Source: Candidatus Saganbacteria bacterium CG08_land_8_20_14_0_20_45_16 (lineage in GTDB: Bacteria; Margulisbacteria; WOR-1; O2-12-FULL-45-9). Taken from it: a stretch of 40,577 nucleotides of DNA. The stretch is taken from contig PEYM01000086.1 of assembly GCA_002774365.1 (NCBI GenBank), forward strand, positions 1 through 40,577, given 5' to 3'. The notes under the pieces are model-generated. The model saw only the letters and a program-made list of their open reading frames with translations. It searched no databases and was not told the origin of the DNA. A program made the translations under genes and the position numbers. How positions within the stretch are numbered: the stretch's first letter is position 1; the number at the start of each line of letters is the position of its first letter. Shown one piece after another: positions 22,277 to 39,811 of the stretch.

Positions 22277-22291
22277 AGAGCAAAAAAAATA

Positions 22292-23548: not shown

Positions 23549-23564
23549 GGAGGAGAAAGTAGCC

Positions 23565-23855
23565 ATGGAATTAAACAATGTAAAACTGCCTGAGTTTGGA
23601 GAAGAACAAAAAGGTGAAAAGCTTGATCAACGAAGCCTAGGCAATATTCCAATTAAAGCAACCGTTGAACTAGGACAAACAGAATTGTCACTCAAAGAGA
23701 TCCTGGACCTGGCCGAAGGCTCAATTATTGAGCTGGGCCGCTTGGCCGGGGAACCGCTGGACCTTAAGGTAGGCGGTCAGCTAATTGCTCAAGGTGAAGT
23801 TGTGGCTGTTGACGATTATTACGGGCTACGGATCACTAACCTGGCAATCAGATGA
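23565..23855 (+). CDS. fliN: Flagellar motor switch protein FliN
   Basis: FliN is the small SpoA-domain protein that forms the base of the C-ring. The 96-residue product is almost only that domain: IPIKATVELGQTELSLKEILDLAEGSIIELGRLAGEPLDLKVGGQLIAQGEVVAVDDYYGLRIT. The start is ATG 23565, behind AAGGAGG, rather than a longer frame reaching into the fliM tail. A 4-nt overlap with fliO shows translational coupling. Confidence 0.92.
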   Translation: MELNNVKLPEFGEEQKGEKLDQRSLGNIPIKATVELGQTELSLKEILDLAEGSIIELGRLAGEPLDLKVGGQLIAQGEVVAVDDYYGLRITNLAIR

Positions 23856-24151
23856 CAACAGAAGCCTTAGCTTTTCAAACCGCACCGGTCGTTACCTTTG
23901 GCTATTTGGCCCAGGTGGTATTCTCGCTTTTAGTCGTTCTCGCCTTAATTGTTTTAGCTGCCAAGTATCTTATGCCTCGTTTCAAGATCAACCCTAGCGG
24001 TAAAACCATCCAAATCGTAGAACGCGTTTTTTTGGAACCACAAGTCAGCCTTTGCCTGGTCAAGGTTGAGGGCAAAAGATGGCTGATCGGCCTAGGCAAC
24101 AAGCAACTATTTAAAATCGATCGTCTTGATGACGAGAAAGCCAGCACATAA
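23852..24151 (+). CDS. fliO: Flagellar biosynthesis protein FliO
   Basis: FliO helps FliP ring assembly in the export apparatus. The 99-residue protein has a short N-terminal segment, one membrane helix (VVFSLLVVLALIVLAAKYLMPRF, about 22-44) and a soluble C-terminal part with IQIVERVFLEPQVSLCLVKVEGKRWLIGLG, the FliO signature strand pattern. FliO is variable in sequence; identity rests on this pattern and on position between fliN (4-nt overlap) and fliP (directly adjacent, no gap). Confidence 0.85.
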   Translation: MTTEALAFQTAPVVTFGYLAQVVFSLLVVLALIVLAAKYLMPRFKINPSGKTIQIVERVFLEPQVSLCLVKVEGKRWLIGLGNKQLFKIDRLDDEKAST

Positions 24152-24895
24152 ATGAGAAAAACATTTGGTTTAGCCCTAGTCAGTTTTTTGCTGCAAGGGG
24201 TTGTCCTGGCCCAAAAAATTGCGCCCTTAACTGACCAGATCAATTTCTCCCAAATAGTCAGTTCCCCTCAATTTAGCAATAGTATCCAATTGGTCATCAG
24301 CTTATCTTTAATCTCCTTGGTCCCTTTTTTCTTGATCTCCATTTCATCCTTTCTCAGAATAATAATTGTCTTGTCACTTATTAGGACCGCCATCGGGACC
24401 CAACAGGTACCACCCAACACCATTCTGATCAGTTTAGCTATTTTTATGACCTTGTTTGTGATGTCACCAGTCTGGACAGAGATCAATACCAAAGCCGTCG
24501 TCCCCTATAACCAAGGACAGATCAGCCAGGCTAAGGCCCTGGAGATCGGGGCTGTTCCTATTCAAAAGTTTATGCTCAAACAGACCAGGGAAAAAGACTT
24601 GGCCTTGTTTGTGCAATTTTCCAAAATTCCCAAACCAAAAACTGCTGATGATATCCCAATTTATGTCTTGATCCCATCTTTTATGATCTCAGAGCTTAAG
24701 ACTGCTTTTCAAATGGGCTTTTTGCTTTTTATCCCTTTTATTATAATTGACCTAACTGTGGCCAATATTTTGCTCTCACTGGGCATGTTCATGTTGTCGC
24801 CAGTCATGGTCTCGCTACCGTTTAAGATCTTACTTTTTGTACTAGTTGATGGCTGGAACCTGATCGCCAGGGGATTACTCTTAAGTTTTAAATAG
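24152..24895 (+). CDS. fliP: Flagellar export-gate protein FliP
   Basis: FliP is the main subunit of the export gate that passes flagellar subunits. The 247-residue protein starts with a signal-like segment (FGLALVSFLLQGVVLAQ), which FliP uses for insertion, followed by the family core SFLRIIIVLSLIRTAIGTQQVPPNTILISLAIFMTLFVMSPVW and the late blocks PSFMISELKTAFQMGFLLFIPFIIIDL and SLGMFMLSPVMVSLPFKILLFVL. Length is normal. It abuts fliO, and fliQ follows 8 nt later. Confidence 0.97.
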   Translation: MRKTFGLALVSFLLQGVVLAQKIAPLTDQINFSQIVSSPQFSNSIQLVISLSLISLVPFFLISISSFLRIIIVLSLIRTAIGTQQVPPNTILISLAIFMTLFVMSPVWTEINTKAVVPYNQGQISQAKALEIGAVPIQKFMLKQTREKDLALFVQFSKIPKPKTADDIPIYVLIPSFMISELKTAFQMGFLLFIPFIIIDLTVANILLSLGMFMLSPVMVSLPFKILLFVLVDGWNLIARGLLLSFK

Positions 24896-24903
24896 GATAA
24901 ATT

Positions 24904-25173
24904 ATGGGACAAGATTTCGCAATTCAAGTCATGTATCAAGGGATCACTACTGTGCTGATGATCTCACTACCATCAGTGTGCGTTGGCCTCTTGGTTGGTT
25001 TTATAGTTAGCCTTTTCCAAGCCGTGACCCAGATCCAGGAACAAACTTTAACCTTTGTCCCCAAGGTCATCTCAGTCCTGCTAATGGTAGCCCTTACCTC
25101 GCCTTGGATGATCTCGATCATGATCGATTTTACAACTACCCTGTGGAGCACTATTCCTAATATGGCAAGATGA
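24904..25173 (+). CDS. fliQ: Flagellar export-gate protein FliQ
   Basis: The 89-residue protein has two membrane helices in the FliQ hairpin: SLPSVCVGLLVGFIVSLFQAVTQIQEQTLTFVPKVISVLL with the VTQIQEQTLTFxPK signature, then WMISIMIDFTTTLW. FliQ sits with FliP and FliR in the gate. The last 4 nt overlap fliR (ATGA). Confidence 0.97.
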   Translation: MGQDFAIQVMYQGITTVLMISLPSVCVGLLVGFIVSLFQAVTQIQEQTLTFVPKVISVLLMVALTSPWMISIMIDFTTTLWSTIPNMAR

Positions 25174-25943
25174 TTATTTCTACCCAGCAATTTCTGGTAT
25201 ATCTCTTGATCGTAGGCAGAATTGCGGGAGTATTTATTCAAGCCCCGATCCTTAATAGTCGCAGCTTTCCTATTTTTGCTAAAACCTCACTGGTTATCTG
25301 GCTAGCCCTTGTCCTCTGGTTTGTCGTCCCAATCAATAAACCGCTGCCTGTCACCCTAAACACATTTTGGCTCGCGCTGATTTTTGAGGTCGCCATCGGG
25401 TTTGTCCTGGGATTTGTCGCTAACCTTATCTTCTTGGGTGTCCAGGCGGCTGGAGAAATTATTGACCTGCAAATGGGCCTCTCGGTTGCGTCTGCCCTTG
25501 ATCCTGTCTTTGGCGCAGTTATTTCTGTGATCGGCCGGTTGACTTTTTTCTTTGCCATGATCGTCTTTCTCGCGGTTAATGGCCATCACCTTGTCCTGTC
25601 AGCACTGCACCAAAGCTTTACCGTCATTCCTGTCGGGAAAATGGCAAATTTCTCCTCCCCGCACCTAACCATGCAAGTCGTTAACCTCTGCACTGTTTTT
25701 TGGTCAACAGCCATCAAGTTAGCTGGCCCGGCAGTGCTAATTATTTTTTTGTCTGACTTTACCTTTGGGATTGTTTCGCGGGTCGCTCCCCAAGTCAATG
25801 TCTTTATGCTCGGGTTCCAGGTCAAGCCATCGCTTGGCCTAATTACCATTTTATTTAGCTTGCCGTTCCTGGTAAAATATATTGACCACCTTATCGAATT
25901 TATGACCCAGCAATTCATCCTTTTGCTAAATAACATAAAATAG
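25170..25943 (+). CDS. fliR: Flagellar export-gate protein FliR
   Basis: The 257-residue membrane protein has the FliR pattern: VGRIAGVFIQAPILNSRSFPIFAKTSLVIWLAL near the start, EVAIGFVLGFVANLIFLGVQAAGEIIDLQMGLSVASALDP in the middle, where FliR plugs the gate, and the C-terminal PQVNVFMLGFQVKPSLGLITI. It overlaps fliQ by 4 nt, so the start at 25170 is fixed by coupling. The next gene, flhB, follows 12 nt later. Confidence 0.97.
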   Translation: MIISTQQFLVYLLIVGRIAGVFIQAPILNSRSFPIFAKTSLVIWLALVLWFVVPINKPLPVTLNTFWLALIFEVAIGFVLGFVANLIFLGVQAAGEIIDLQMGLSVASALDPVFGAVISVIGRLTFFFAMIVFLAVNGHHLVLSALHQSFTVIPVGKMANFSSPHLTMQVVNLCTVFWSTAIKLAGPAVLIIFLSDFTFGIVSRVAPQVNVFMLGFQVKPSLGLITILFSLPFLVKYIDHLIEFMTQQFILLLNNIK

Positions 25944-25955
25944 GAGAACTAAAAT

Positions 25956-27056
25956 ATGGCTGAAGGCGGAGATAAGTCAGAGGAACCTACCCCCCATCGT
26001 TTGCGCGAAGCCCGAGAAAAAGGACAGGTTGCCAAGAGCCGCGAGATTACGGTCGCGGTAGTTTTATTAGCTTCGTACATATCTCTACGCTATCTCGGTG
26101 AATTCATTATTAGGAATATAATTGAAACGATCAGGATCTTGCTCCTCCTCATCCCAGAAGCAACTAATTTTAATCTTGCTTTTGTTGGTTATGTCTTGTT
26201 AATTGCCATCAGGTGCCTCTTTTTTGCTATTATGCCAATTTTTGGCATTACCTTTCTGGCCACCTTTATCGCCGAAGTAATGCAAACAGGGTTTGTTTTT
26301 TCCTCTGAGCCGCTCAGCCCAAAACTAGAAAAGCTCAACCCGCTCCAAGGGTTGAAAAAGATCTTTTCCCTTCAGGGCTTTGTCGAGTTGATCAAATCAT
26401 TACTTAAGATCTCAATTGTCTTTTATATCTCCTGGATAGCCATTAAGGAGGACCTGCCCTACATTATCACTTTGATCGAAGCTCAACCCTGGGACCTGAT
26501 CGCGGTGGGCGGCATGTTGGTCTATAAAATTGCCATCAGGGTCGGCTTGTTTTATATTGTCATTGCCCTGCTCGATTATCTATACCATCGGTGGGAATAC
26601 ATGAGGAACCTAAAGATGTCCCGCCAGGAGGTCAAGGAAGAGTATAAACGCCTCGAAGGTGACCCGATGGTCAAGCAAAGAATGCGTGACCTACAGCGGC
26701 AGGCAGCCCAGCAACGCATGATGGGGTCCGTACCCAAAGCTGATGTCGTCGTCACCAACCCTACGCACATCGCTATTGCCTTAAAATATGAGCCGCAAAA
26801 AATGACCGCGCCCCTGCTCTTGGCTAAAGGCGAAAGAAAAATTGCGGAAGAGATCAAAAGGATCGCCGAAGCCCATGAGATCAGTATTGTTGAAAACGAG
26901 CCTTTGGCCAGGTCAATTTTTCGCACGACCAAAATCAACCATGAGATCCCGTCCGAGCTTTATCAAGCTGTAGCCGAAGTCCTAGCTTATGTTTATAAGA
27001 TCAAACGAGAGCGCCAAGAAAGGGCCAAAGCTTCTATTGCCCTGCTGCCGAGGTAG
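25956..27056 (+). CDS. flhB: Flagellar export switch protein FlhB
   Basis: FlhB changes export specificity from rod/hook to filament proteins when it cuts itself. The 366-residue product begins DKSEEPTPHRLREAREKGQVAKSREI, the conserved N-terminus, has four membrane helices, then the cytoplasmic domain with the autocleavage motif Asn268-Pro-Thr-His (VVVTNPTHIAIALKY). The rest, KGERKIAEEIKRIAEAHEISIVENEPLARSIF, is also typical. All catalytic residues are kept, so normal switching with FliK is expected. Confidence 0.97.
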   Translation: MAEGGDKSEEPTPHRLREAREKGQVAKSREITVAVVLLASYISLRYLGEFIIRNIIETIRILLLLIPEATNFNLAFVGYVLLIAIRCLFFAIMPIFGITFLATFIAEVMQTGFVFSSEPLSPKLEKLNPLQGLKKIFSLQGFVELIKSLLKISIVFYISWIAIKEDLPYIITLIEAQPWDLIAVGGMLVYKIAIRVGLFYIVIALLDYLYHRWEYMRNLKMSRQEVKEEYKRLEGDPMVKQRMRDLQRQAAQQRMMGSVPKADVVVTNPTHIAIALKYEPQKMTAPLLLAKGERKIAEEIKRIAEAHEISIVENEPLARSIFRTTKINHEIPSELYQAVAEVLAYVYKIKRERQERAKASIALLPR

Positions 27057-27141
27057 GAGTATAATGAGCGCAAATTCAAAGCCCAAAACAATAACATGGC
27101 ATATTCTGACGCCTTAATTTTGAAAACAGGACTTAACATCA

Positions 27142-29232
27142 ATGGCTACACCGGGACTTAATTTAGAGGGTTTTAAAAAGCTTTTTTCAGTCAATGACTT
27201 TCTAGTAGCTTTGCTGCTAGTCGTGATCATTGGTTTGATGATCGTTCCCTTGCCGCCGTTTGTGCTTGACCTCTTGATGACAGTGAGCATTGCTTTTGCC
27301 CTGATTATCCTCTTGGTCGCGATGTTCTTAAAGGAACCTTTGGAATTCGCTTCTTTTCCTTCTATTCTGTTAATCATCACAGTTTTTCGCTTGTCCTTAA
27401 ATATCGCGGCGTCAAGGTTGATCTTAAACCAAGGCTTTGCCGGCGATGTCATCACCGCTTTTGGGACTTTTGTGGTTGGCGGCAATTATGTTGTTGGCGC
27501 CATTATTTTTATAATCATTACGATCGTTAATTTTATTGTTATCACCAAAGGTTCAGAACGCGTGGCCGAGGTGGCCGCCAGGTTCACCTTAGACGCTATG
27601 CCCGGCAAACAAATGTCAATTGACGCTGACCTTAACGCCGGTTTAATTGACGCTAATGAAGCGCGAGCCCGTCGCCGCAAAATCGAGCGTGAAGCCACTT
27701 TCTACGGCTCCATGGACGGTGCTAATAAGTTTGTCCGCGGAGATTCCATCGCTGGGATCATTATTGTTTTGGTCAATATTATCGGCGGGATCCTGGTGGG
27801 CTGGCTGCAAGCCGGCCTCGGGGTCATGGAAGCCCTCACCCTTTACGCGCTCCTGACTATTGGCGCTGGTTTAATTGGTCAGTTAACCGCTCTTTTGATC
27901 TCGATTGCTACTGGTTTAGTGATCACTAAATCAGCCACGGAAATGAGCTTGGGCACAGATGTGGCTAGTCAGGTCTTTGCCCAACCTCGAGCCTTTGCTT
28001 TTGTCTGTATCATCATGGGCATTTTTGCCATGATCCCAGGGATCCCGACGACACCGTTTATGATCTTGGCTTCGCTTTCTGGCGGTGTGGCCTTGGTGCT
28101 GATGCGGTCGCAATCAGCCCTAGACCAGGCTAAAGTCGTGACCGAAGAAGTCACAGCCAAGGACGTGCTCAAAAAACCAGAAAGCATTTTAGGTACCTTG
28201 GGCCTTGATCCCTTATCGCTCAAGGCCGGCCGCAATCTTATCCCGTTGATTGACCCGTCGCAAAAAGGGCCGCTGCTTGAGCGCATCACTCTGATCCGGT
28301 ACAACATTGGCCAAGAACTAGGCTTTGTCATCCCTGGCGTACGGGTTATGGACGATCTTAGCCTGCCACCTGACCAATACACCATTGAGATCAGAGGGAC
28401 CAAGATCGCCCAAGGCGAAATAAAGACCGGCCATCACTTGGTTGAGCTCCCGCTGGCCCAAATCAAAGCCAAAAAACTCTCAGGCATTGGAGGGAAACAT
28501 CCGCTCACCGGTGACTTAGTCACTTGGGTTCCAGACGACGCTTTGCCCACCTTGCAAAAGCTTGGGATCGCCAGCAAACCGCCAGTAGACATTATTTCAG
28601 AACATTTTTCTGAAATCATTAAAAGGCATGCCGACGAGATCATGACCAGACAAAATGTCCAATCATTGATCGAATTAGTTAAGAATAACAATGCCGCAAT
28701 CGTCCGCGAACTGATCCCAGACTTGCTATCTCTTGGACAAGTCCACAAGGTTATGCAGCTCTTGGTACGCGAGAGAGTTTCCATCAGGGATCTTTCAACC
28801 ATTCTTGAAAAATTGGCTGATTACGCGCACCTCTCGCGCGATATAAATGTTTTAGCAGAATATGTGCGGCAGTCCCTGGCCAGGCAAATCTGCGACAAAT
28901 ATACTAACAAAGACGGAGTGATAACAGTCGTAACAATTGATCCTGCCTTAGAAGAAACCCTGATCGGCTCAATTCACCAATCAGAATATGGGTCGTTCTT
29001 GGCTGCTGATCCTAATGTTGGCGAGAAGATCCTGGTCCAAATCTCTGGGCATCTGCGTAACTTTAGACGGATGAAACTCTCGCCGGTAATTCTCTGCTCG
29101 CCTCGTCTGCGTCCGCACTTTAAGCGCTTTATTGAGCGCAGTTTTCCTGATACCTCTGTCCTCTCCTATAATGAGATCGTGCCACAGGTCAAGGTCCAAA
29201 GTATTGGCATGATCTCGGCCGAAGGAAAATAG
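27142..29232 (+). CDS. flhA: Flagellar export-gate protein FlhA
   Basis: FlhA is the large gate protein that docks chaperone-substrate complexes. The 696-residue protein has about eight membrane helices in the first 300 residues, the FHIPEP signature in the loop (VAARFTLDAMPGKQMSIDADLNAGLIDANEARARR), and a cytoplasmic domain of four subdomains from about 340 to 690. The 85-bp gap before it is the longest in the operon and contains two short open frames of 17 and 21 codons (27064 and 27102) that could be a leader, but the ATG at 27142 with AGGA 10 nt upstream gives a normal N-terminus. It is the last gene of the flagellar run. Confidence 0.97.
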   Translation: MATPGLNLEGFKKLFSVNDFLVALLLVVIIGLMIVPLPPFVLDLLMTVSIAFALIILLVAMFLKEPLEFASFPSILLIITVFRLSLNIAASRLILNQGFAGDVITAFGTFVVGGNYVVGAIIFIIITIVNFIVITKGSERVAEVAARFTLDAMPGKQMSIDADLNAGLIDANEARARRRKIEREATFYGSMDGANKFVRGDSIAGIIIVLVNIIGGILVGWLQAGLGVMEALTLYALLTIGAGLIGQLTALLISIATGLVITKSATEMSLGTDVASQVFAQPRAFAFVCIIMGIFAMIPGIPTTPFMILASLSGGVALVLMRSQSALDQAKVVTEEVTAKDVLKKPESILGTLGLDPLSLKAGRNLIPLIDPSQKGPLLERITLIRYNIGQELGFVIPGVRVMDDLSLPPDQYTIEIRGTKIAQGEIKTGHHLVELPLAQIKAKKLSGIGGKHPLTGDLVTWVPDDALPTLQKLGIASKPPVDIISEHFSEIIKRHADEIMTRQNVQSLIELVKNNNAAIVRELIPDLLSLGQVHKVMQLLVRERVSIRDLSTILEKLADYAHLSRDINVLAEYVRQSLARQICDKYTNKDGVITVVTIDPALEETLIGSIHQSEYGSFLAADPNVGEKILVQISGHLRNFRRMKLSPVILCSPRLRPHFKRFIERSFPDTSVLSYNEIVPQVKVQSIGMISAEGK

Positions 29233-29255: not shown

Positions 29256-29283
29256 TTGACACACTCCCTAGTAGTACTATAAT
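29256..29283 (+). promoter_or_regulatory. Consensus promoter of the first envelope-cluster gene
   Basis: TTGACA (29256-29261), 16 nt, TATAAT (29278-29283): both boxes are perfect. The ribosome-binding site AAAGGGGGG (29295-29303) and ATG 29309 follow. This predicts very strong, constitutive-type expression. Confidence 0.75.
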
Positions 29284-29308: not shown

Positions 29309-31630
29309 ATGAAAAGAATATTTTTTATTTTGTCGTCTATTTTTTTATTCAGTCTACCTGTTTGGGCCAGTTGGACAACAGAAGCCCAAGATATTAGCGC
29401 CCAAACTTACTATGACGTTCAATTTATTGGCGAAAAAATCGGTTTTGCGGTTGGGGATAAGGATACTTTTGCCACTAGCACTGACCGAGGCATCAATTGG
29501 ACCTCTTCAACTATTGCCGGTATTTCTACTTATGCCTGGTATGGCCTTTGTTTTTTAGATAGCCAAGAAGGTTTTGTCTGCGGTAGTGACGGCAACAATC
29601 CATCAAAACCAAAAATTTATGCCACAACTAATGCTGGCTCATCATGGAGCAATAAATCACCAGCCAGCTATAGTATCAATGGATCAATTGTCTATGATGT
29701 CTTTTTCCTAAATAGCACTACTGGCTGGGCCGGTGGATCAGGCAACAGTTTTTCCCCAGCTCAAAATTATTATTACACTAGCAATGGCGGAGTAAGCTGG
29801 ACACTAGAAGCAATTGAAGATACCAATCAGAACGCCTACCCAGAGATCAGAGAGCTTTATTTTAAAGATGCTTCTAACGGCTGGGCAGCCGGCAGACAGA
29901 CAGGCATGGGCGGTTATGTTTTTAACACTACTGACGGTGGTCTCACTTGGTCTCGACAACTTGGCAGCTCATCATTTCTAGAGCTTTATGGACTTGCTTA
30001 TCTATCTTCCGGCGGTAACGATCTGCTTTGGGTTACAGGGGGGGGGGCAGGGGGAGGCAGTAGCACTAATCAGTTCTATTCCTCGGATGATGGCGGCAGT
30101 ACCTGGACCTCAACAGTTTTTGATGTTTGGCCAGGAATGCGTAGCATCTCTTTTATTGATAAATACACTGGTTATTGTGTTGGAAACCAAGGAACAATTT
30201 ATAAAACAACTAATGCTGGTTCAGCTTGGACGTTAGTTGATTCTGGAACTACGCGAACTCTGCAAAAGGTCCATTATTACAACAGTTACAATGCTTGGGC
30301 TGTGGGCGGCGGTAACCCTGGTCGGATTATCCTAAAAGATGTCACCAATCCAACCATACTTTCTGTTGATCCCGCCTCTGGCAGCCAAGGAGACTCCCTC
30401 TCGGTTTTGATCACTGGGACTAATATTCAAGGCGATCCTCTAAGCTTTGGCTCTGGCATTACAGTCAATTCATTTGCCGTGGCAGGCGAATCAAACACCG
30501 AAGGCCTAGCTGATATCACCATTGACCCTGCTGCCTCTGTTGGCAATAGGGATATAACTTTAACTAATCCAGACTCAGGAGAAGTCACATCTGTCAACGC
30601 CTTTGCTGTCAATGACTCAACTACTACAACTACCACAACTACCACAACCATAACGACAACAACAACTACAATAACGACGACAACTACTACTACTACTACA
30701 ACTACCACAACCATAACGACAACAACAACAACAACTACAATAACGACGACAACAACTACTACTACAACTACCACAACCATAACGACAACAACAACTACAA
30801 TAACGACGACACTACCATCACCCACTACTACGACAACAACTACCAGTGTCCCACCCACAACCATTACCGCCACAACAACTGCCACAGTTACCTCAACTAC
30901 AGTAGCCAGCACAACCACAGTCACTATCACAATAACTACAACAACAATAACAACTACCACAACAACCATGACAACAACTACTACTATTACCAGCACCACC
31001 CTTAGTAACCCAACCCTTAACAGAGTAAATCCTAATAAAACCCAGGTACTTGAAAGCAGTGGTAAAGAAATTACTTTGATCCTTATTGGCACAAATTTTG
31101 CAGAGGGCGCTAGCGTTAAATTGACCAAGGCTGGACAATCAGACATTATTGGCACAGTTAATAGCGTTAGTAGCGACGGCACTACCATCAATGCTAAGTT
31201 CACCCTGCCGGCAAAAACCCAGGAAGGGACGATTGGCTATTGGGCTGCAGTAGTCACTAATCCTAACAGCCAGAGTGCCACGCTACCACACGCTTTTGCT
31301 ACTTCATATGCCGGTGTTTTCTTTTATCCCAATCAACTCTCTTTCCATGGCCTCCAGTCAAGCGCTACCACTTCAGCCGCTAGGATTGTCTACAATCTCA
31401 GCGCGGATACTCCAATTGAGGTCGTTATCTATGATATTCGGGAAATGAAAATTGTCTACCGCAGAAAATACGCCAGCGGTCAAACTGGCGGCAGCAGTGG
31501 CTATAACGAGATCCAATGGAACGGCCAGACGGATTTTGGCCACACCATTGCTAACGGCACTTATGTGTTGCAGATCTATTCTTCTAGAGGAGAAATAATT
31601 GGTCAAACTTATTTTGTGGTCAAAGATTAA
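29309..31630 (+). CDS. Secreted Ycf48-propeller protein with Thr-rich stalk and FlgD-like C-terminus
   Basis: The 773-residue protein has a signal peptide (MKRIFFILSSIFLFSLPVWA). Residues about 22-345 form Ycf48/BNR-like propeller repeats (repeated GWAxGxxG...TTNAGxxW blocks, for example STDRGINW, ATTNAGSSW, NTTDGGLTW). An IPT/TIG-like domain follows (350-432), then a 129-residue Thr-rich tract (438-566) that is almost pure Thr with Ile, a second IPT-like domain (570-670) and a C-terminal FlgD-like Ig sandwich (about 680-773: AARIVYNLSADTPIEVVIYDI to GTYVLQIYSSRGEIIG). Such C-termini occur in secreted surface proteins, sometimes as sorting tails. A G10 run (30038-30047) sits in the propeller. 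It heads the cluster with the strongest promoter in the window. Function unknown; adhesion or structure is a guess. Confidence 0.75.
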   Translation: MKRIFFILSSIFLFSLPVWASWTTEAQDISAQTYYDVQFIGEKIGFAVGDKDTFATSTDRGINWTSSTIAGISTYAWYGLCFLDSQEGFVCGSDGNNPSKPKIYATTNAGSSWSNKSPASYSINGSIVYDVFFLNSTTGWAGGSGNSFSPAQNYYYTSNGGVSWTLEAIEDTNQNAYPEIRELYFKDASNGWAAGRQTGMGGYVFNTTDGGLTWSRQLGSSSFLELYGLAYLSSGGNDLLWVTGGGAGGGSSTNQFYSSDDGGSTWTSTVFDVWPGMRSISFIDKYTGYCVGNQGTIYKTTNAGSAWTLVDSGTTRTLQKVHYYNSYNAWAVGGGNPGRIILKDVTNPTILSVDPASGSQGDSLSVLITGTNIQGDPLSFGSGITVNSFAVAGESNTEGLADITIDPAASVGNRDITLTNPDSGEVTSVNAFAVNDSTTTTTTTTTTITTTTTTITTTTTTTTTTTTTITTTTTTTTITTTTTTTTTTTTITTTTTTITTTLPSPTTTTTTTSVPPTTITATTTATVTSTTVASTTTVTITITTTTITTTTTTMTTTTTITSTTLSNPTLNRVNPNKTQVLESSGKEITLILIGTNFAEGASVKLTKAGQSDIIGTVNSVSSDGTTINAKFTLPAKTQEGTIGYWAAVVTNPNSQSATLPHAFATSYAGVFFYPNQLSFHGLQSSATTSAARIVYNLSADTPIEVVIYDIREMKIVYRRKYASGQTGGSSGYNEIQWNGQTDFGHTIANGTYVLQIYSSRGEIIGQTYFVVKD
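30620..31005 (+). repeat. Degenerate ACN triplet array encoding poly-Thr
   Basis: About 386 bp of ACT/ACA/ACG/ACC codons with scattered ATA. It contains three close copies of a longer unit, starting ACTACCACAACCATAACGAC at 30638, 30701 and 30767 and each ending ATAACGACGAC, 63 and 66 bp apart. This shows expansion by duplication of blocks, not only by triplet slippage. After 30810 the array becomes less regular (ACC and CCA interruptions). Confidence 0.85.
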
Positions 31631-31636
31631 AACTGA

Positions 31637-33511
31637 ATGCCCAAATATTTTAAAATTATATTTTTATTCATTGGTTTGGTTCTCTGGTCAGGGTTAAGCC
31701 TGGCCCAAGAGATCAAGTTTTCCTCTGACATTACTAGGCTTGCGGTTGGCGCTAGGCCCCTGGGCATGGGCAAAACATTTTGCGGCTTGGCCGATGACAT
31801 TAGCGCCATGTACCTTAATCCAGCGGGCTTAGCTTTTCTTGCGGCCCCGCAAGCCTTAAGCCTCTCGGGAAAATTCGTCAACACTGTAAATTATTTTACC
31901 TTAGCCGGCGCCACCCCAGCCTCAATCGGGACCCTGGGCATAGGTTATACCAGCGCGGGCATTGGTTTTTCTGCTCCTAACCTTAATCTCGTAGAAATAG
32001 CCACTGGTGAATACAGGGTTATTCCTTCAAGCAATGAGAGCGTTTCTTTTGATTATCAAAACCAAGTGCTAGCCTTTACGTATGGCACAACATTTTTCAG
32101 GGAAAATCTGGCCTTTGGTACAACTCTCAAGCTATTTAGCGAAAACATCAGCGGTTCAAGCAATGGCTCGTCTTTAGGCAAAGACCTGGACATCGGACTG
32201 CTTTTCAAACCTAATGCTTATATTAACCTGGGCCTGGTCGCCCAAAACGTTTTGCCAGTGGAACAAGGCGGAAAAATTACCTGGGACACAGGGCAAAAAG
32301 AAGCTATCCCAACAACCATAACACTCGGCACCAACATTAAGCTGACAACCAGCGGCGAGCTTAATCTTGGGGCAGATTACAGCTACCAACCAGAACTGGG
32401 TCAAATCCCTGGCTTCTGGCACTTGGGGATTGAATGGTGGCCCACGCCAATTTTCGCGGCCAGGGCTGGCCTTGACCAGGATGTCATTGGCAGCGGAACA
32501 GGCACAGCCTTTGAAACTGTAAACAATCTCACCAGCGGGGTTAGTTTAAAGTTTGACAGTTTCCGCTTTGATTACGCTTACCACAAATATAATGATCTTA
32601 GCAACAATGATACCCATTATTTCTCGTTAGTTTTTGAGGGGCTCAAATTTATCCCCTTGCAAATCACTGAGCCAAGTGATCAGCTAATCACTCACGCCTC
32701 AACTATTAAAGTTGCCGGCTTTCTGCAAGATCATCGAGTCGCTTATTTGCAAATCAAAGACCAGGTGGTTCAAGCCAGCAAAGGTTCTTTTGAAGCTGAG
32801 GTTTCGCTTGATCTAGGCAAAAATACCATTTGGGTTGCTGGATTTGACCGTCATGGCAAATTAGTGGTCAGCAAAAAAACCCGAGTCTTGCGGTTAATAC
32901 AATACAAAGATATTCCTAATGACTATTGGGCCAGAGAGACGATTGAAGAATTGGGTACCTTGGCACTCATGCCTGGTTACAAGGACAATACTTTCCATCC
33001 CGAAAAAGAGACCCCGCGGGCTAATTTTTTGATTAGCTTGCTCAATATTGGCGAGATTCCGCCAGCCGAACAACTTGATCCTTTCCCCTTTGTTGACATC
33101 AAAACCAGTGATTCCGTGGCCCCTTATGCTAAGGCTGGCTATGACACTAAACTTGTGGTCGGTTATCCAGATAAGACGTTTAGGCCATGGCGCATCCTCA
33201 ACCGGCTTGAAGGCGCGATCATGGCTGTTAGGTTCTCAAATTTCACTCTTGACGAGGTCTTAGAGCGGCCATACCTAGACATTACGGCACGGCACTGGGC
33301 CATTAATGAGATCAGCGCGGCCAAGCAAAACAACCTTTTAAAATTTGCCCTGGAATACCTCTACCCTAAGAAAAAAATCACACGGGCAGAGCTGGCAATA
33401 ATGCTAGCTAATACGCCCAAAGTCCTGGTGCAAGTCCAAGCCCTACTTGATTTTGAGGCTGGTTATGAAATAATCTATCCATATCAAGGAGTAAATGGGC
33501 AGCTAAATTAG
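31637..33511 (+). CDS. Outer-membrane barrel (PorV/UPF0164-like) fused to C-terminal SLH domains, copy 1
   Basis: A signal peptide (IFLFIGLVLWSGLSLAQ) precedes the PorV/UPF0164-like start RLAVGARPLGMGKTFCGLADDISAMYLNPAGLAFL. A barrel of repeated amphipathic strands runs to about residue 335 (RFDYAYHKYNDLSNNDTHYFSLVFEGL). Then comes an Ig-like part (about 342-420, SDQLITHASTIKVAGFL) and three SLH repeats (424-600): IPNDYWARETIEELGTLALMPGYKDNTFHPE, FVDIKTS...VGYPDKTFRP and DITARHWAINEISAAKQNN. The SLH binding motif is weak in the first two (PRANF, NRLEG) and standard in the third (TRAEL). Most SLH-barrel proteins known (OmpM, SlpA) have SLH first. It is 6 nt after the Ycf48 gene and lacks its own promoter. 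Confidence 0.78.
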   Translation: MPKYFKIIFLFIGLVLWSGLSLAQEIKFSSDITRLAVGARPLGMGKTFCGLADDISAMYLNPAGLAFLAAPQALSLSGKFVNTVNYFTLAGATPASIGTLGIGYTSAGIGFSAPNLNLVEIATGEYRVIPSSNESVSFDYQNQVLAFTYGTTFFRENLAFGTTLKLFSENISGSSNGSSLGKDLDIGLLFKPNAYINLGLVAQNVLPVEQGGKITWDTGQKEAIPTTITLGTNIKLTTSGELNLGADYSYQPELGQIPGFWHLGIEWWPTPIFAARAGLDQDVIGSGTGTAFETVNNLTSGVSLKFDSFRFDYAYHKYNDLSNNDTHYFSLVFEGLKFIPLQITEPSDQLITHASTIKVAGFLQDHRVAYLQIKDQVVQASKGSFEAEVSLDLGKNTIWVAGFDRHGKLVVSKKTRVLRLIQYKDIPNDYWARETIEELGTLALMPGYKDNTFHPEKETPRANFLISLLNIGEIPPAEQLDPFPFVDIKTSDSVAPYAKAGYDTKLVVGYPDKTFRPWRILNRLEGAIMAVRFSNFTLDEVLERPYLDITARHWAINEISAAKQNNLLKFALEYLYPKKKITRAELAIMLANTPKVLVQVQALLDFEAGYEIIYPYQGVNGQLN

Positions 33512-33570
33512 CACAAGTTTGTCAGTAGTTATTACGATATTATTTTAGGGACAGGGAAGCAGGAATTCGA

Positions 33571-33600
33571 TTGACATTAAGTTCACTAGGATGCTAAAAT
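33571..33600 (+). promoter_or_regulatory. Promoter of the second barrel-SLH gene
   Basis: TTGACA (33571-33576), 18 nt, TAAAAT (33595-33600). It excludes an upstream ATG at 33591, which lies in the -10 region, and supports ATG 33615 behind AAAAGGGG (33603-33610). Confidence 0.65.
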
Positions 33601-33614
33601 TTAAAAGGGGTTAT

Positions 33615-35516
33615 ATGAAAAAAATCCTGCTGCTCGCAATTATTTTTCTTTTATTGGGCGCCTCAATAGTATTGGCGCAAGCAGCCCCTGATCCGATTCG
33701 TATTGCCACTGGCGCCAGGACCCTGGGCATGGGCAAAGCTTTTGTTGGTTTAGCTGATGACGTTAGCTCTGTCTTCCTTAACCCAGCAGGCTTAGCTGCT
33801 CCTGATCGCTGGCAAATCACCTCAATGTCAGGAAAGCTCCTAGAAGAATACAATTATGTTTCCCTATCAGGCCTCTACCCTACCAAATTTGGCAATTTCG
33901 GGCTGGCCTATATACGCTCCGACATCTCCGGGGCCTTGCCAACAACCATTGAGGTCGGATCTAACCATGATGACCCTATTTACACAGTTGACCTAACCCA
34001 AGAGCAGATGAGTTATTACAACAACCTGATCATGCTCTCTTACGCCAATAAACTTGCGCCTTTGTTCCAACTGCCGGCTCTCAATACTGTCAGCGCTCGT
34101 TTCCCAGGACTAAAAGACATACAAGTTGGGGCCAATGTCAAACTTTTTGCTGTTAATCTAACTGGCGACCACATTGAACGCGGCAGTGCTAGTGGCACAG
34201 AGCTTGACCTAGGCATTCAGGGTAAACCCCTCTCCTGGCTGGCACTTGGCGCCAATATTCAAAACGCGCTGCCAATGTCCATGGGAGGAAAACTTGTTTA
34301 TCAATCTGGTTGGGAAGAGTCTTATCCAGCTATCCTAAAGGCTGGCGCGGCCTTTGACCTGCTTGGCCCAGAAAACGCGCTTTACAAATTTGGCACTCAT
34401 AAGCTCACGCTTTTAACTGACTTTGATTATGAGATCTCCCGCTCCAGCAAGATCCCAACTTTACTCCATCTAGGAGCTGAATGGAAGCCAATTAATCTTA
34501 TTGCCATCAGGGCTGGCATTGATCAAGAGATGGCTGGGACCAACAACATTGAGAACAATTTTAGCTCAGGCGTTGGCATTTACTATGGTGATTTTAGGTT
34601 TGATTATGCCTATCACCAGTTTGCCGGCGCACCTGGCATTGACAACCACTTTTTCTCGCTCTCATATGGGATTGCTCCGGCTAGGCAAGTGGAAGACCCT
34701 CTAATCTCCTCGCCAGACAAGCTAATAACAACCGAAACAGTGGTCGCTATTAAGGGCAAGGCGGTTGACACTGAAATTATGTCAATCAAGGTCAATGGAC
34801 TTAAAGTAACCATGTCTCCTAGGGGCGATTTTGAAACTAATGTTTCCTTGCACGTAGGCAAGAACACTATTTTAGTCGAGGGCCTTGATTATAACGGCAA
34901 GCCGATTGCCAGCGACACCCTTAGGATATTAAGGCTAATTACCTACCCAGATGTCCATAAAACCCATTGGGCCAATGAACAAATTGATTATATTGGCACA
35001 CTAGGGGTTATTAAAGGTTATCCTGACGGCAGCTTTAAACCAGAGGGGACCATCAGCCGAGCAGAGCTATCCACTCTCCTTATGAGGATCACCATGAACG
35101 GAGACAGCAACGTGCCAAACGCCTCTAAGAAACGTTTCAAGGACCTGCCTTTGACTCACTGGGCAGCCAAATATGTCAATCTGGCAGCCGCAACTGGTAT
35201 TGTCAAAGGTTATCCTAACAACACCTTTAAGCCTTCTGGCAATGTTACCCGGGCCGAGGGCTTGACCATGATCACTCGTTTTGGCGGGGTAAGCAAAGAA
35301 AGCTACTCTAATCTGTTCATTGATGTTAAGAAAAACCACTGGGTCGCGCCGATCCTAGCCGGGGCTTATCAAGAAGGAATGCTTATTCACTTTAAAGACA
35401 AGCCTTTCTTCCCAAATAATAAGCTTATCCGTTCAGAAGCAGTTGAGCTACTCTATCGCAGCAAACCAGTTATTACGCTGATCGAAGATTTACGTGATTT
35501 TGAGAAAGGATACTAA
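33615..35516 (+). CDS. Outer-membrane barrel (PorV/UPF0164-like) fused to C-terminal SLH domains, copy 2
   Basis: This 633-residue paralogue of the preceding gene has the signal peptide MKKILLLAIIFLLLGASIVLAQ and the diagnostic RIATGARTLGMGKAFVGLADDVSSVFLNPAGLA. The barrel ends near residue 350 (FRFDYAYHQFAGAPGIDNHFFSLSYG). An Ig-like part follows (DKLITTETVVAIKGKAVD), then three SLH repeats from about residue 443: YPDVHKTHWANEQIDYIGTLGVIKGYPDGSFKPE with SRAEL, FKDLPLTHWAAKYVNLAAATGIVKGYPNNTFKPS with TRAEG, and FIDVKKNHWVAPILAGAYQEG with RSEAV. Its SLH motifs are closer to consensus than those in copy 1. It has its own promoter but is 13 nt before the next gene. Tethering an outer-membrane barrel to cell-wall polymer is inferred. 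Confidence 0.8.
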   Translation: MKKILLLAIIFLLLGASIVLAQAAPDPIRIATGARTLGMGKAFVGLADDVSSVFLNPAGLAAPDRWQITSMSGKLLEEYNYVSLSGLYPTKFGNFGLAYIRSDISGALPTTIEVGSNHDDPIYTVDLTQEQMSYYNNLIMLSYANKLAPLFQLPALNTVSARFPGLKDIQVGANVKLFAVNLTGDHIERGSASGTELDLGIQGKPLSWLALGANIQNALPMSMGGKLVYQSGWEESYPAILKAGAAFDLLGPENALYKFGTHKLTLLTDFDYEISRSSKIPTLLHLGAEWKPINLIAIRAGIDQEMAGTNNIENNFSSGVGIYYGDFRFDYAYHQFAGAPGIDNHFFSLSYGIAPARQVEDPLISSPDKLITTETVVAIKGKAVDTEIMSIKVNGLKVTMSPRGDFETNVSLHVGKNTILVEGLDYNGKPIASDTLRILRLITYPDVHKTHWANEQIDYIGTLGVIKGYPDGSFKPEGTISRAELSTLLMRITMNGDSNVPNASKKRFKDLPLTHWAAKYVNLAAATGIVKGYPNNTFKPSGNVTRAEGLTMITRFGGVSKESYSNLFIDVKKNHWVAPILAGAYQEGMLIHFKDKPFFPNNKLIRSEAVELLYRSKPVITLIEDLRDFEKGY

Positions 35517-35529
35517 TGAGGTGAAAATA

Positions 35530-38500
35530 ATGCGACGTTTTACAATTGGGCTGGCATTTTTGTTATTACTAATTTTTCAAGTTGGCGCTGGCGCTACCAA
35601 CACGTGGATTGACCAAACCAGTCCTGCTTCTCAAGGCTTAAATGACGTTTGCTTTATTGATACTTCTACTGGAATTGCGGTTGGGGACAATCAAAATATT
35701 ATCAAAACCACGGATTACGGCACAACTTGGACATCAAAAAGTCCTGGATTCGAGTCACAATCTCATTTTCATGGCATTCAGTTTCCAACCGCTTCCGTAG
35801 GCTATATCGCTGGCGCCACAACTTCAGCTTTGTTCTATAAAACAACTGATACTGGAGAAACCTGGAGTGATCTCTCCTCACATGTTGGTACACTGGCTTC
35901 CCAACTTTATGATCTACAGTTTTTTGACGCTAATAATGGCTGGGTTGTGGGTTATCACGATACCGAAGCGGCTCTGCTAAAAACAACTGACGGTGGAATA
36001 AGTTGGGAACGAAAAGCAATAGGCGCCTCAGGCAATAGAACTTATTTTGGGCTGCACTTTATTGATACTAATACAGGTTGGGTTGTGGGCAGCTTGGGAC
36101 TGATTTACAAAACAACTGACGGTGGGACAAATTGGACTCAACAAGAGACAACAATCACCAACCAAAATTTACGCGACGTGTTTTTTATTGATAGCAATAA
36201 TGGCTGGACAGTTGGGGAAGGGAGCGTAATTATGAAAACCACTAATGGTGGAACAACTTGGTCTCTTATTGACTGCGGGATTTCTAATGCTTATTTTACC
36301 AAGGTCTATTTTATTAACGCAACCACTAGCTGGGTAGTTGGCTGGAGCGGTCTTGTCCTAAAATCAACTGATGGTGGGGAAACCTGGGCACCTGATACCA
36401 ACATAACAACAAGTGACACTGAATATCTCAATGGGATTAATTTTGTTGATCCCAATAATGCAACTATTGTGGGCAAAGGGAGCGACATTATCTTCAACTA
36501 TGGTGCTGTCCCTGATTTTTCTCTCTCTCCTAGCACACGCGCCCAAGGCTGGAGCGGGACTATTACTTGTACTGCTTCAGCGTATTTTAGACCTGACGTG
36601 GCAGTAACTATTAGCAAGACTGGCGGTAGCGGCTTTGATTATACTTATTCATATAACAGTTCAATGGAAATAACTATTCCAACTACTTTAGCCGCAGATG
36701 CTACTACTGGTGATTGGACTGTTACACTAACTGATGGTGACGGACGCTCAGCCGCACAAACTTTTACTGTTAACGACGCCCCAACAATAAGCGATATCAG
36801 TCCAGCTAATAGAGCTCAAGGCTGGAGCGGTGATATGACTGTAACTGGAACCAACTTCCGAGCTGGCGCCACAGCAAGTGTGGCCAAATCCGGCGGTTCT
36901 GGATTTGCTTACTCTTACACCCGCGATAGCGCCACCCAATTCACTATTCCAGCCACCTTGGCCGCGGATGCCACTACTGGCGACTGGACAATTACTGTAA
37001 CTAATACTGACACCAGCGCTACTTCTGCTGCCTTTGCCGTCAATGCCTCACTGGCCATTGATTCAGTAACCCCTGACAATAAATATCTGGGTTGGACTGG
37101 AGAAATAACCTTAGAAGGCTCTGGTTTTCAATCTAGCGTAGCAGTTACTATGACCAAAACAGGCGGGACTGGCCTTAGTTATTCCTATAACCGCGACAGT
37201 GCTACGAAAATAACTTTAACCGCCACGATCGCAGCCACTGCCTCGGTCGGCGCTTGGGTTATTACAGCCACGAATCCTGACAGCAGTGCTAACACGGCCA
37301 CCTTTACTGTTAATAATTTACCAAAGATTATTTCCCTTTCCCCTGCCAGTCTTACCCAAGGCGCTACGGCAAGGGACATAGTCATCACTGGTGATTATTT
37401 CCAAGACGGACTAACCACAAGTAGTTTAAGTTTTGCTGGAGGCGGGATTACCATTAATTCCTTAACTCGCAACAGTACCACCAGTGTCACAGCTAATCTA
37501 ACAATAGCCAGTAGCGCAACCACTGGAGATAGGGCTATCACCTTGACCAATCCAGACGGCGGGATAACAACAGCCAGCGACCTTTTTAGCATCAGCGCGG
37601 CTTCAACGCCAACTCAACCCAACCCAACTATTAGCTCCGTTAGCCCTAACACTGGCGATCAAGGCACGAGCTCGCTTAATCTAACAGTGAGGGGCGAAAA
37701 CTTTTTAGCCACACCCACAGTTTCACTGGGCAGCGGGATAACTGTTAACTCGGTTACATTTAATGATGCAACTTCACTGACCGCTAATATCAGCATTGCG
37801 GCCAGCGCGGCCCTAGGCTCAAGAACCATCACGGTGACAAACTCATCGCCAGCCGGCAGCTTGGGCAGTATGTCAGACGCCTTTTTTGTTACGGCTTCCG
37901 GAGCTTTGCCAGTAACAATAGAATCAGTTTCGCCTAATTTGATATATGTAACTTCTGAGGGCGCAGCCGCTAGCCTAGCCTTCAGGCCACTCTCAACTAG
38001 TCTTAATCCATTTGCCGAGGCTAGTCAAATCCTGACTATCTACGGCCACAATTTCCATGCTAACCCAAGCGCATCCTTTTCCCCCAGCCTGCCTATCCAA
38101 TCGATCAATCGCAGGGATAGCTCCCATATCTTGGTTTACTTTACGCCAAGTGTGGGAACTTATGATATTACAGTTTCTAATAGCGATGACGGCAGCTCTG
38201 GCACAGGCAGCAATCTCTTGACTGTTCGAGCAGCAAGCACAAACGCAGTTACGATGAAATCTGTCTTTGCCTATCCCAATCCCTGGAACCCTCTTAGCGG
38301 CAACCTTACTCTGCAGTTCTTTTTTGACCGTGCTTGTCAGATCAAGATAGTTATTGCTGGAATTGATCTAATTGTCAGGGGTGAAATTGTGCAAAACTGT
38401 GTTGCCGGCAAAAACAATATTACCTGGGACGGCAATCCCAACGGATCCTTTAGCCATCTGCCTCAGGGCATTTATGTAATGACCATCTATGTAATTGAAA

Positions 38501-38556
38501 ATGGCTCAGCCAGAAAACTGGGTACCTACAAACTAGGTGTCGCCTACTTTAAGTAA
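35530..38556 (+). CDS. Secreted Ycf48-propeller protein with Ig/IPT repeats and FlgD-like C-terminus
   Basis: The 1008-residue protein starts MRRFTIGLAFLLLLIFQVGAGA (signal peptide). Residues about 24-340 are Ycf48/BNR propeller repeats (IIKTTDYGTTW, LLKTTDGGISW, IYKTTDGGTNW, IMKTTNGGTTW, VLKSTDGGETW). Then come three tandem Ig-like units sharing the turn RAQGWSG/RAQGWSG/KYLGWTG (starting near residues 335, 425 and 515), two IPT/TIG-like units (SPASLTQGA..., SPNTGDQGT...) and a FlgD-like C-terminus (FAYPNPWNPLSGNLTLQFFFDRACQIKIVI ... GIYVMTIYVI). I chose ATG 35530 because GAGGTGA lies just upstream and a proper signal peptide results. It resembles the 29309 gene, but has Ig repeats where that has the Thr tract. 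Function unknown. Confidence 0.75.
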   Translation: MRRFTIGLAFLLLLIFQVGAGATNTWIDQTSPASQGLNDVCFIDTSTGIAVGDNQNIIKTTDYGTTWTSKSPGFESQSHFHGIQFPTASVGYIAGATTSALFYKTTDTGETWSDLSSHVGTLASQLYDLQFFDANNGWVVGYHDTEAALLKTTDGGISWERKAIGASGNRTYFGLHFIDTNTGWVVGSLGLIYKTTDGGTNWTQQETTITNQNLRDVFFIDSNNGWTVGEGSVIMKTTNGGTTWSLIDCGISNAYFTKVYFINATTSWVVGWSGLVLKSTDGGETWAPDTNITTSDTEYLNGINFVDPNNATIVGKGSDIIFNYGAVPDFSLSPSTRAQGWSGTITCTASAYFRPDVAVTISKTGGSGFDYTYSYNSSMEITIPTTLAADATTGDWTVTLTDGDGRSAAQTFTVNDAPTISDISPANRAQGWSGDMTVTGTNFRAGATASVAKSGGSGFAYSYTRDSATQFTIPATLAADATTGDWTITVTNTDTSATSAAFAVNASLAIDSVTPDNKYLGWTGEITLEGSGFQSSVAVTMTKTGGTGLSYSYNRDSATKITLTATIAATASVGAWVITATNPDSSANTATFTVNNLPKIISLSPASLTQGATARDIVITGDYFQDGLTTSSLSFAGGGITINSLTRNSTTSVTANLTIASSATTGDRAITLTNPDGGITTASDLFSISAASTPTQPNPTISSVSPNTGDQGTSSLNLTVRGENFLATPTVSLGSGITVNSVTFNDATSLTANISIAASAALGSRTITVTNSSPAGSLGSMSDAFFVTASGALPVTIESVSPNLIYVTSEGAAASLAFRPLSTSLNPFAEASQILTIYGHNFHANPSASFSPSLPIQSINRRDSSHILVYFTPSVGTYDITVSNSDDGSSGTGSNLLTVRAASTNAVTMKSVFAYPNPWNPLSGNLTLQFFFDRACQIKIVIAGIDLIVRGEIVQNCVAGKNNITWDGNPNGSFSHLPQGIYVMTIYVIENGSARKLGTYKLGVAYFK

Positions 38557-38623: not shown

Positions 38624-39811
38624 TTACGGCAGGCAGGTCAGCTTGCCCTTGCCTAGCAGTTTATTATTAGTGCGGTCAACAATGGTAAAGACATAAATGC
38701 CTGAGCTGACAATCCCGCCCTGGTCTGTCTTTAGGTCCCAAATTACTTTATTAACCCCAGCAGCCGCACCCTCTGCCCTAGCCTCAAAGCTGAATTTCTT
38801 GACCACTCTGCCAGAAACATCAAATAAACTAATCTCTATATTTAAGTCCTGGCTCAAAGTATATTGAAGCACAACTTCGCGGTCAGTAGTGAGTTTCACT
38901 GGACTAGGAAAGGCCAGCGGAACCCCGATCAAGCGCGGTTCACCGCCAGCCACAGTCACAGTGCAGACTTCATAAGTTGGGCCATAAATATTAGTCGCCC
39001 TAAAGGTTATATTTTGTTGTCCTTCTGGCAAGCGAGGCTCTTTTTCTTGGTAAAAATCATAGACAAAAGAAACCCCAGTCGGCGCGCTGGTTGGCCCGGA
39101 ACTCTGCGTAATGTTAGCCGCCGCGATATTAAATGTCCTGGCATCAGCCTTACCCTCGTTTAAGACCATTAACAATTGGCTAGTATCAATACCAAAGGCC
39201 GAAGTAGCGCGGGCAGTGATCCTTGGCTGCTGCGCAATAACATAAGCCTGGCCGCGAGCAACTAAACCAGGCTGGTACTTGCGATTGCCAAAAGTAATAT
39301 CAGTAAAAATTGGCGGCGCACCAACAATTGCCGGGCCGCCAGGCTCACCTGGCTGCGGCTCTGGCCGGGCCGCTATAGTAGTAACCCCAGTGCTCGGTGC
39401 TAAGACCAAGTTAGCAGCCAAAACATCATAACCTAGTCCAGTGACACTAAGCTCAACAGGGTCAGCACCATAGCCATCTTCGCCCCGAACAACTGCCAGA
39501 TGATATTTACCAGGAGCAATCGCCAAGCGAGAATCCTGATAAGCATTCAGCATAAACTGATTGTCCCGGCCTGACAAGCCAGCCGTACCCACAATATCAT
39601 CAGCATAGCCATTGTCAGGATTGTCGCGGTAAAAGATAACTTGGCGATTGGCCGTGGCCACGCCAGCCGGCGCGGAAACCGAGCCAGCAATCCAATACAT
39701 GCCCAAATAAACATGCTGGGCCCTGGCTGGGAGCAAAAAAGCCATCGTTACCAGCAGCCCCGCGATCAGGGCTATTTTAAAACTATTCAACTGTTTTGTT
39801 TCTCTCCTCAT
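38624..39811 (-). CDS. Secreted protein with FlgD-like C-terminal domain
   Basis: The 395-residue protein has a signal peptide after a short charged stretch (IALIAGLLVTMAFLLPARAQ). Its N-terminal half (about 30-140) resembles a carbohydrate-binding or transthyretin-like sandwich (QVIFYRDNPDNGYADDIVG, GKYHLAVVRGEDGYG), a Pro/Gly-rich linker lies at 148-165, and the C-terminal 100 residues match the FlgD-like Ig/sorting fold: FPSPVKLTTDREVVLQYTLSQDLNIEISLFDVSGRVVKKF ... VIWDLKTDQGGIVSSGIYVFTI. The ATG at 39811 has no good ribosome-binding site; a TTG seven codons later, behind AGGAGAG, is an alternative. It is probably co-transcribed with the preceding minus-strand gene (33 nt away). Function unknown. 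Confidence 0.65.
   Translation of the reverse strand: MRRETKQLNSFKIALIAGLLVTMAFLLPARAQHVYLGMYWIAGSVSAPAGVATANRQVIFYRDNPDNGYADDIVGTAGLSGRDNQFMLNAYQDSRLAIAPGKYHLAVVRGEDGYGADPVELSVTGLGYDVLAANLVLAPSTGVTTIAARPEPQPGEPGGPAIVGAPPIFTDITFGNRKYQPGLVARGQAYVIAQQPRITARATSAFGIDTSQLLMVLNEGKADARTFNIAAANITQSSGPTSAPTGVSFVYDFYQEKEPRLPEGQQNITFRATNIYGPTYEVCTVTVAGGEPRLIGVPLAFPSPVKLTTDREVVLQYTLSQDLNIEISLFDVSGRVVKKFSFEARAEGAAAGVNKVIWDLKTDQGGIVSSGIYVFTIVDRTNNKLLGKGKLTCLP

Follow-up and report, generated by a model that had tools for sequence, protein, structure and literature searches.

We describe two tandem genes, W1 and W2, on a 40,577-nucleotide stretch of DNA (hereafter the window; contig PEYM01000086.1) that is contig 34 of the 1.78 Mb, 95% complete genome of Candidatus Saganbacteria bacterium CG08_land_8_20_14_0_20_45_16. 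Each encodes a protein in which a signal peptide, recognised by eye, is followed by a PorV-type barrel, an immunoglobulin (Ig)-like unit and three S-layer homology (SLH) repeats. We propose that W1 and W2 act as outer-membrane carriers of the PorV type, each with a wall anchor of its own, and would both display cargo and pin the outer membrane to the wall; we put the probability of this reading at roughly 0.6. The proposal builds on the domain architecture of the proteins, a predicted PorV-like fold of 14 strands, conservation throughout the class, the operon-like linkage of such barrels to genes for proteins with a C-terminal domain (CTD) like those of the type IX secretion system (T9SS), and the co-divergence of barrels and CTDs. 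A preliminary description of this DNA had already recognised two paralogous open reading frames (ORFs) with the order barrel, Ig, SLH, which the ORFs themselves, Pfam and NCBIfam matches and full-length matches across the class now bear out; it overlooked the linked CTD-bearing cargo genes, which are the best functional clue and point to a carrier or display role beyond that of a tether.

Architecture, predicted fold and distribution

W1 and W2 are 34% identical. Their Pfam SLH scores were 70.6 and 108.2 bits, respectively (cut-off 20.8), and both Ig-like units score above the 27-bit cut-off of PF09136 (Table 1). The NCBIfam PorV_fam model (NF033709) gave 88.2 bits for W1 and 83.3 bits for W2, slightly below its curated cut-off of 90, with W1 reaching 91.2 bits when scored with its neighbours and the own-genome paralogue C44 reaching 95.0 bits. 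The W2 ORF opens at 33591; a start at 33615 was preferred because a ribosome-site-like AAAAGGGG and the promoter-like TTGACA-18-TAAAAT precede it. The SLH motifs of W1 are weak in two of three repeats, as had been claimed, and those of W2 are good in repeats 1 and 2; the good motifs attributed to W2 do not extend to its third repeat, where LIRSE is off consensus too. In W1, repeats 1 and 2 are as weak as those of its orthologue in a relative (L110:5902-7803, with motifs TKRVD, LNRVE and LPRAE), which indicates a conserved trait and no recent decay. The preliminary description took the contrast between the copies as a hint of different partners, which they may have.

An AlphaFold2 model of W2, based on an alignment of 27 proteins from the window and named loci, had a mean predicted local distance difference test score (pLDDT) of 86.6 and contained 14 strands of at least six residues between residues 67 and 351, such that the N-terminal part is modelled as a closed, PorV-like barrel. 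When W2 was searched against the PDB with Foldseek, PorV of the T9SS translocon took the top two places (8gl6_F, E 3.8e-13; 6h3i_F, E 1.6e-10), followed in third place by the SLH domain of Bacillus anthracis Sap. VIA-align matched the barrel to PorV with Z 30.7 (root-mean-square deviation, rmsd, 4.1; 293 residues aligned) and the tail to the SLH structure 3pyw with Z 17.4 (rmsd 2.6; 175 aligned), complexes with pyruvylated polymer following at Z 15-16. The barrel had initially been called PorV/UPF0164-like; the first half of that name stands, while UPF0164 left only a trace (E 0.071) and was dropped as a family name.

One may postulate an alternative in which the two proteins are FadL-like channels that are tied to the wall and take up hydrophobic molecules, given that the barrel aligns to FadL and TodX structures with Z 26-29.5. 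PorV and FadL are hard to tell apart by fold alone, and sequence distinguishes them better: a profile of 12 barrels compared with PDB sequences picked out only PorV below E 0.5 (at 1.5e-6), a FadL homologue appearing at 0.72, and PorV_fam was matched at E 1e-23 to 1e-25 as opposed to 0.08 for OMPP1/FadL. An uptake role would also leave the CTD linkage described below unexplained, and we consider it rather improbable. Hardly probable at all is a function as a BamF-like accessory barrel of the β-barrel assembly machinery (BAM), which would assist the assembly of proteins of the outer membrane or the surface; in BAM complexes of Bacteroidota, the FadL-family subunits reach Z 25-26 (9n2d, 9hiv, 9hjm), but PorV fits better, and the many paralogues per genome, many with a CTD gene of their own, contrast with the one housekeeping gene that such a role would call for.

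The SLH part had been placed either in the periplasm or outside the cell, and the evidence favours the former. The even strand count of the W2 model together with a periplasmic N-terminus would place the C-terminus, and with it the SLH tail, in the periplasm; on this predicted side of the barrel, four of the six connectors are only two residues long. An outward-facing tail bound to a polymer on the surface, by which these proteins would be S-layer-type anchors, would suit cargo proteins that resemble surface proteins, and SLH domains hold S-layers in monoderms according to one account (PMC10628300). This arrangement is nevertheless very improbable in our view, as it conflicts both with the predicted topology and with a sister ORF in which an N-terminal motif of PorV type (NF033709, E 2.5e-5) is fused to a signal peptide peptidase SppA / peptidase S49 domain, which is expected to act inside the envelope. 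Judging from its sequence, this 811-residue ORF (L060:1713-4148, contig C15 of the same genome) would be a second arrangement of barrel followed by envelope domain, here an enzyme. Frames of similar length are present in G044:C8, G049:C2 and G059:C1.

A W2 scan of named genomes returned 27 loci, 26 of which carry the names Candidatus Saganbacteria, candidate division WOR-1 or Margulisiibacteriota; the remaining one, in a Peptostreptococcaceae genome, is an SLH-only match. The preliminary description had also proposed searching related lineages for the same fusion. A profile of the seven own-genome copies was compared with 74 genomes of the phylum, all of which match it to some degree, and a full-length match to the fusion was obtained in every one of the 31 class genomes (the source genome, nine of its family, nine of its order and 12 further), with a best E no worse than 2.3e-169. 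The arrangement is therefore neither a chance join nor an assembly error, and an oddity confined to the source genome was likewise rejected. Outside the class the matches are weaker, and they are near full-length in at least five of 43 genomes (G014, G030, G031, G032 and G034). The source genome holds seven SLH-bearing barrel copies as well as four OmpM-type ORFs in which SLH comes first (C92, C81, C35 and C68). A tree of 90 barrels, estimated with a quick method, contained at least seven changes of SLH state on well-supported branches and thus does not support a single fusion event; the row G049:C7 in this tree is truncated by a contig end, and its SLH-less label may be wrong.

Linkage of barrels and CTD-bearing cargo genes

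The gene order in the window is cargo A, W1, W2, cargo B. The stop codon of cargo A lies 6 nt 5' of W1, the ATG of cargo B lies 13 nt 3' of the W2 stop, and this spacing, together with promoter-like sites before cargo A and W2, suggests two transcription units, cargo A-W1 and W2-cargo B. Relative L110 keeps the order CTD gene, fusion, fusion, CTD gene. The terminal domains of the two cargo proteins comprise about 100 residues. The T9SS sorting-domain model TIGR04183 was matched above its 23-bit cut-off by two of seven single CTDs, with most scoring below. A model of the cargo A CTD (pLDDT 87.6) had PorZ as its best Foldseek match (E 3.6e-5), with FlgD also among the matches; by VIA the best match was the CTD of PorU (Z 11.1, rmsd 2.1), followed by complement-type domains at Z 10.1. 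A profile of 21 CTDs compared with PDB sequences found PorU (1.1e-7), FlgD (1.1e-6) and PorZ (2.7e-4).

Linkage was counted in eight Saganbacteria (WOR-1) genomes, consisting of the source genome and seven class genomes with few contigs, in which the CTD profile had 147 matches and the barrel profile 138. After 36 barrel matches below 90 bits and two of the remaining 102 with a late model start had been dropped, 100 barrels were kept. A CTD match was located directly upstream on the same strand, with a match-to-match gap of at most 343 nt, for 61 of these 100, compared with 0.37 expected from uniform placement. Among SLH-bearing barrels, of which 56 were verified singly in fetched sequence and 7 were already known from the own genome, 30 of 57 had a CTD upstream, and the proportion differed by type: 28/39 with Ig and three SLH repeats, 2/11 without Ig, and 0/7 with Ig and two SLH repeats. 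Frames shorter than 480 residues, the tails of which were unscanned, had a CTD upstream in 28 of 37 cases. The downstream control was blank (0/100 barrels) and is weak, as a downstream cargo carries its CTD at the far end; the W2-cargo B pair, whose cargo is downstream, was not counted in these figures. All 61 linked CTDs end within six residues of the stop, and a Lys is found within the last 14 residues in 59.

Barrels and CTDs also diverge together. Across 60 pairs (one of the 61, a short barrel piece, was left out), barrel and CTD distances were correlated with r 0.495, and none of 2000 within-genome shuffles gave a value as high (the null had a mean of 0.003 and an sd of 0.051). When the closest barrel in another genome was looked up, its linked CTD was also the closest one in 235 of 420 comparisons, as opposed to 59.2 expected. 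This analysis shows that the barrel and CTD gene pair behaves as a unit.

Table 1 Features of the window that bear on W1, W2 and their neighbours (positions in nucleotides; promoter-like sites are consensus matches only).
Feature	Position	Strand	Description
Promoter-like site 5' of cargo A	29256..29283	+	TTGACA-16-TATAAT, 12/12
Cargo A	29309..31630	+	Secreted-type; Ycf48/BNR-type propeller, Thr-rich linker, C-terminal T9SS-type CTD at 31316-31624
W1 (copy 1)	31637..33511	+	624 aa; signal peptide, PorV-type barrel, Ig-like unit, three SLH repeats
W1 PorV-type barrel	31718..32641	+	Barrel profile A6, 370.7 bits
W1 Ig-like unit (PF09136)	32657..32881	+	40.7 bits, residues 341-415
W1 three SLH repeats	32903..33397 (32903-33013, 33086-33211, 33269-33397)	+	Motifs TPRAN, LNRLE, ITRAE
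Promoter-like site 5' of W2	33571..33600	+	TTGACA-18-TAAAAT, TG before second hexamer; 11/12
W2 (copy 2)	33615..35516	+	633 aa from start 33615; signal peptide, PorV-type barrel, Ig-like unit, three SLH repeats
W2 PorV-type barrel	33678..34667	+	A6, 427.6 bits; 14 strands in AlphaFold2 model; PDB matches
W2 Ig-like unit (PF09136)	34704..34907	+	38.0 bits
W2 three SLH repeats	34944..35465 (34944-35069, 35133-35258, about 35322-35465)	+	Motifs ISRAE, VTRAE, LIRSE
Cargo B	35530..38556	+	Secreted-type; Ycf48/BNR-type propeller, TIG repeats, C-terminal CTD at 38254-38544; ORF opens at GTG 35494
Third CTD-bearing protein	38624..39811	-	395 aa, convergent to cargo B; CTD at 38630-38929

Two further ORFs lie on the reverse strand of the window. 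A Val-rich antisense ORF of 258 residues (30427-31203) is probably spurious, arising from the low-complexity coding of the Thr-rich linker of cargo A, and an ORF of 667 residues (15001-17004) had no Pfam match at E 0.01.

Envelope context and the weighing of the carrier reading

OmpA-type domains (PF00691) were found in none of the eight genomes, with the control positive in five of 14, and a CsaB-family pyruvyltransferase (PF04230) was found in all eight; both observations fit wall binding by SLH in this lineage. Flagellar genes lie upstream in the window (20695-29232; FliK, FlgE-type, FliM, FliN, FliP, FliR, FlhB and FlhA), yet no OmpA-type domain, and hence no ordinary MotB, was detected in the source genome and its seven relatives.

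The same envelope data bear on the possibility that W1 and W2 are plain tethers, a reversed OmpM in which the PorV/FadL-type barrel serves only as a membrane plug while the SLH tail holds the wall, and in which the CTD genes are adjacent for reasons of regulation. The missing OmpA-type domains would agree with this, as would an Ig-less barrel group (C103-type) with one member in each of the eight genomes and in no case a CTD gene directly upstream; this group is a candidate general tether or carrier. A tether role alone is, however, weakened by the CTD linkage, which extends to SLH-less barrels of the family (the frames shorter than 480 residues), by the co-divergence of CTD and barrel within genomes, and by the OmpM-type SLH-first proteins already present in the same genome, and we judge it unlikely.

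Under the carrier reading, the 14-stranded barrel would sit in the outer membrane, and its extracellular loops would grip the CTD of a cargo protein emerging from a translocon and retain the cargo on the surface, with cargo A as the putative partner of W1 and cargo B that of W2. That loops might take up the CTD at the translocon is suggested by analogy with solved PorV-SprA-substrate complexes, as these are presented in PMC10994853. The Ig-like spacer and the three SLH repeats would hang in the periplasm and bind a probably pyruvylated wall polymer, such that surface protein, outer membrane and wall would be joined in one line of attachment. A carrier bound by its tail could not move far; each copy would then be a fixed display site, and the SLH-less sisters would represent the mobile form.

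Several results weigh against this reading. SprA scored above the model cut-off in none of 69 phylum genomes, such that SprA proper was rejected and full T9SS membership is not claimed here. Weak partial SprA matches occur in 55 of the 69 (28 of 29 in the class), nearly all of them to a short module at about model positions 584-717, and are borne by two protein families of about 1330-1450 and about 1000-1030 residues; profiles of both families find no SprA in the PDB, and five of eight SprA-like members also match a phage tail model. The link to SprA thus comes down to one short repeated module. The PorU peptidase (C25) was found in none of the eight genomes, with the control equally blank. 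As for the models, the predicted template modelling score of the whole W2 model is 0.52, at which the model does not fix how barrel and tail lie relative to each other; FadL fits the W2 barrel almost equally by fold (VIA Z 29.5, rmsd 3.4, 283 residues aligned); and the modelled CTD fold is not exclusive, standing near FlgD and complement-type domains as well. Furthermore, no CTD lies directly upstream in the case of 27 of the 57 SLH-bearing barrels, including W2 and all eight Ig-less C103 members, and co-divergence could equally be explained by joint duplication of the gene pair without any contact between the products.

The larger SprA-like protein can be put forward as a candidate translocon, and as no more. 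Its outer-membrane-type ORF (1326-1452 residues; L064:2901-7019, with 7016-9253; L153-L159) and a CTD-bearing ORF meet tail to tail in 8/8 genomes, next to a ketosynthase-like ORF named by eye. At L161:530-5433 (G059 contig 1), a CTD gene and an SLH-less gene of PorV type are followed immediately by the smaller SprA-like ORF, all three on one strand, a row that may hold cargo, carrier and possible translocon consecutively.

Comparison with known systems

Outer-membrane tethering is thought, as outlined in PMC10628300, to split bacteria between Pal (Gracilicutes) and OmpM/SLH (diderm Terrabacteria), and T9SS has been described as specific to Bacteroidetes (PMC7463736). A literature search of open-licence papers, preprints excluded, found no paper joining PorV with SLH, or T9SS with this phylum. 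A PorV-type carrier fused to SLH would bring the two topics together, as a wall-anchored carrier with another kind of anchor. We tentatively entertain the broader possibility, which we do not favour on present evidence, that Saganbacteria (Margulisiibacteriota) run a T9SS-related export or display system outside Bacteroidota, with SprA-like translocons, cargo-specific PorV-type carriers and SLH replacing the OmpA domain of PorE, so that display and tethering become one function. If true, the PorV-CTD pair would be older than the split of diderms into OmpA/Pal-tethered and SLH-tethered ones, or would have passed across it. The cargo-carrier gene pairs also offer a natural test set for CTD-to-barrel matching.

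By structure and by sequence alike, the barrel is matched best by PorV, the Type A carrier. PorV is not known to have a wall-binding tail, whereas the barrels described here occur as many paralogues, many of them with an SLH tail. One PorV is reported to serve all Type A substrates (PMC12618676). A conserved Lys near the CTD end is described for Type A substrates (PMC10994853), and the linked CTDs resemble them in this respect (59/61).

W1 and W2 resemble OmpM and SlpA in that SLH is joined to a barrel of the outer membrane and the lineage has no OmpA-type tethers (as those proteins are characterised in PMC10628300 and PMC9388160). The claim that W1 and W2 reverse the domain order of OmpM and SlpA is upheld, SLH being last in the former and first in OmpM, and the barrels differ as well: OmpM is depicted there with SLH first, a stalk and a barrel of 16-30 strands, in contrast to the 14-strand PorV-type barrel, Ig spacer and terminal SLH found here. 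W1 and W2 are therefore not OmpM, and with them the genome has, next to its OmpM-type proteins, a second kind of SLH fusion with the opposite order.

The closest parallel in gene arrangement is with the Type B T9SS substrates of Bacteroidota, for which a PorP/SprF shuttle gene is stated to lie commonly directly downstream (PMC12618676), PorP being tied to peptidoglycan by PorE (PMC9143113). As these sources portray that system, the two share a FadL-family 14-strand barrel gene directly 3' of the CTD substrate, several paralogous pairs per genome and a wall-tied complex. They differ in that wall binding in PorP-PorE falls to a separate OmpA-type protein, while here it is fused and of SLH type, and in that the barrel here is PorV-like. 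Our best reading, by analogy, is that W1 and W2 would be a one-polypeptide SLH counterpart of PorP-PorE, in which shuttle and anchor are merged.

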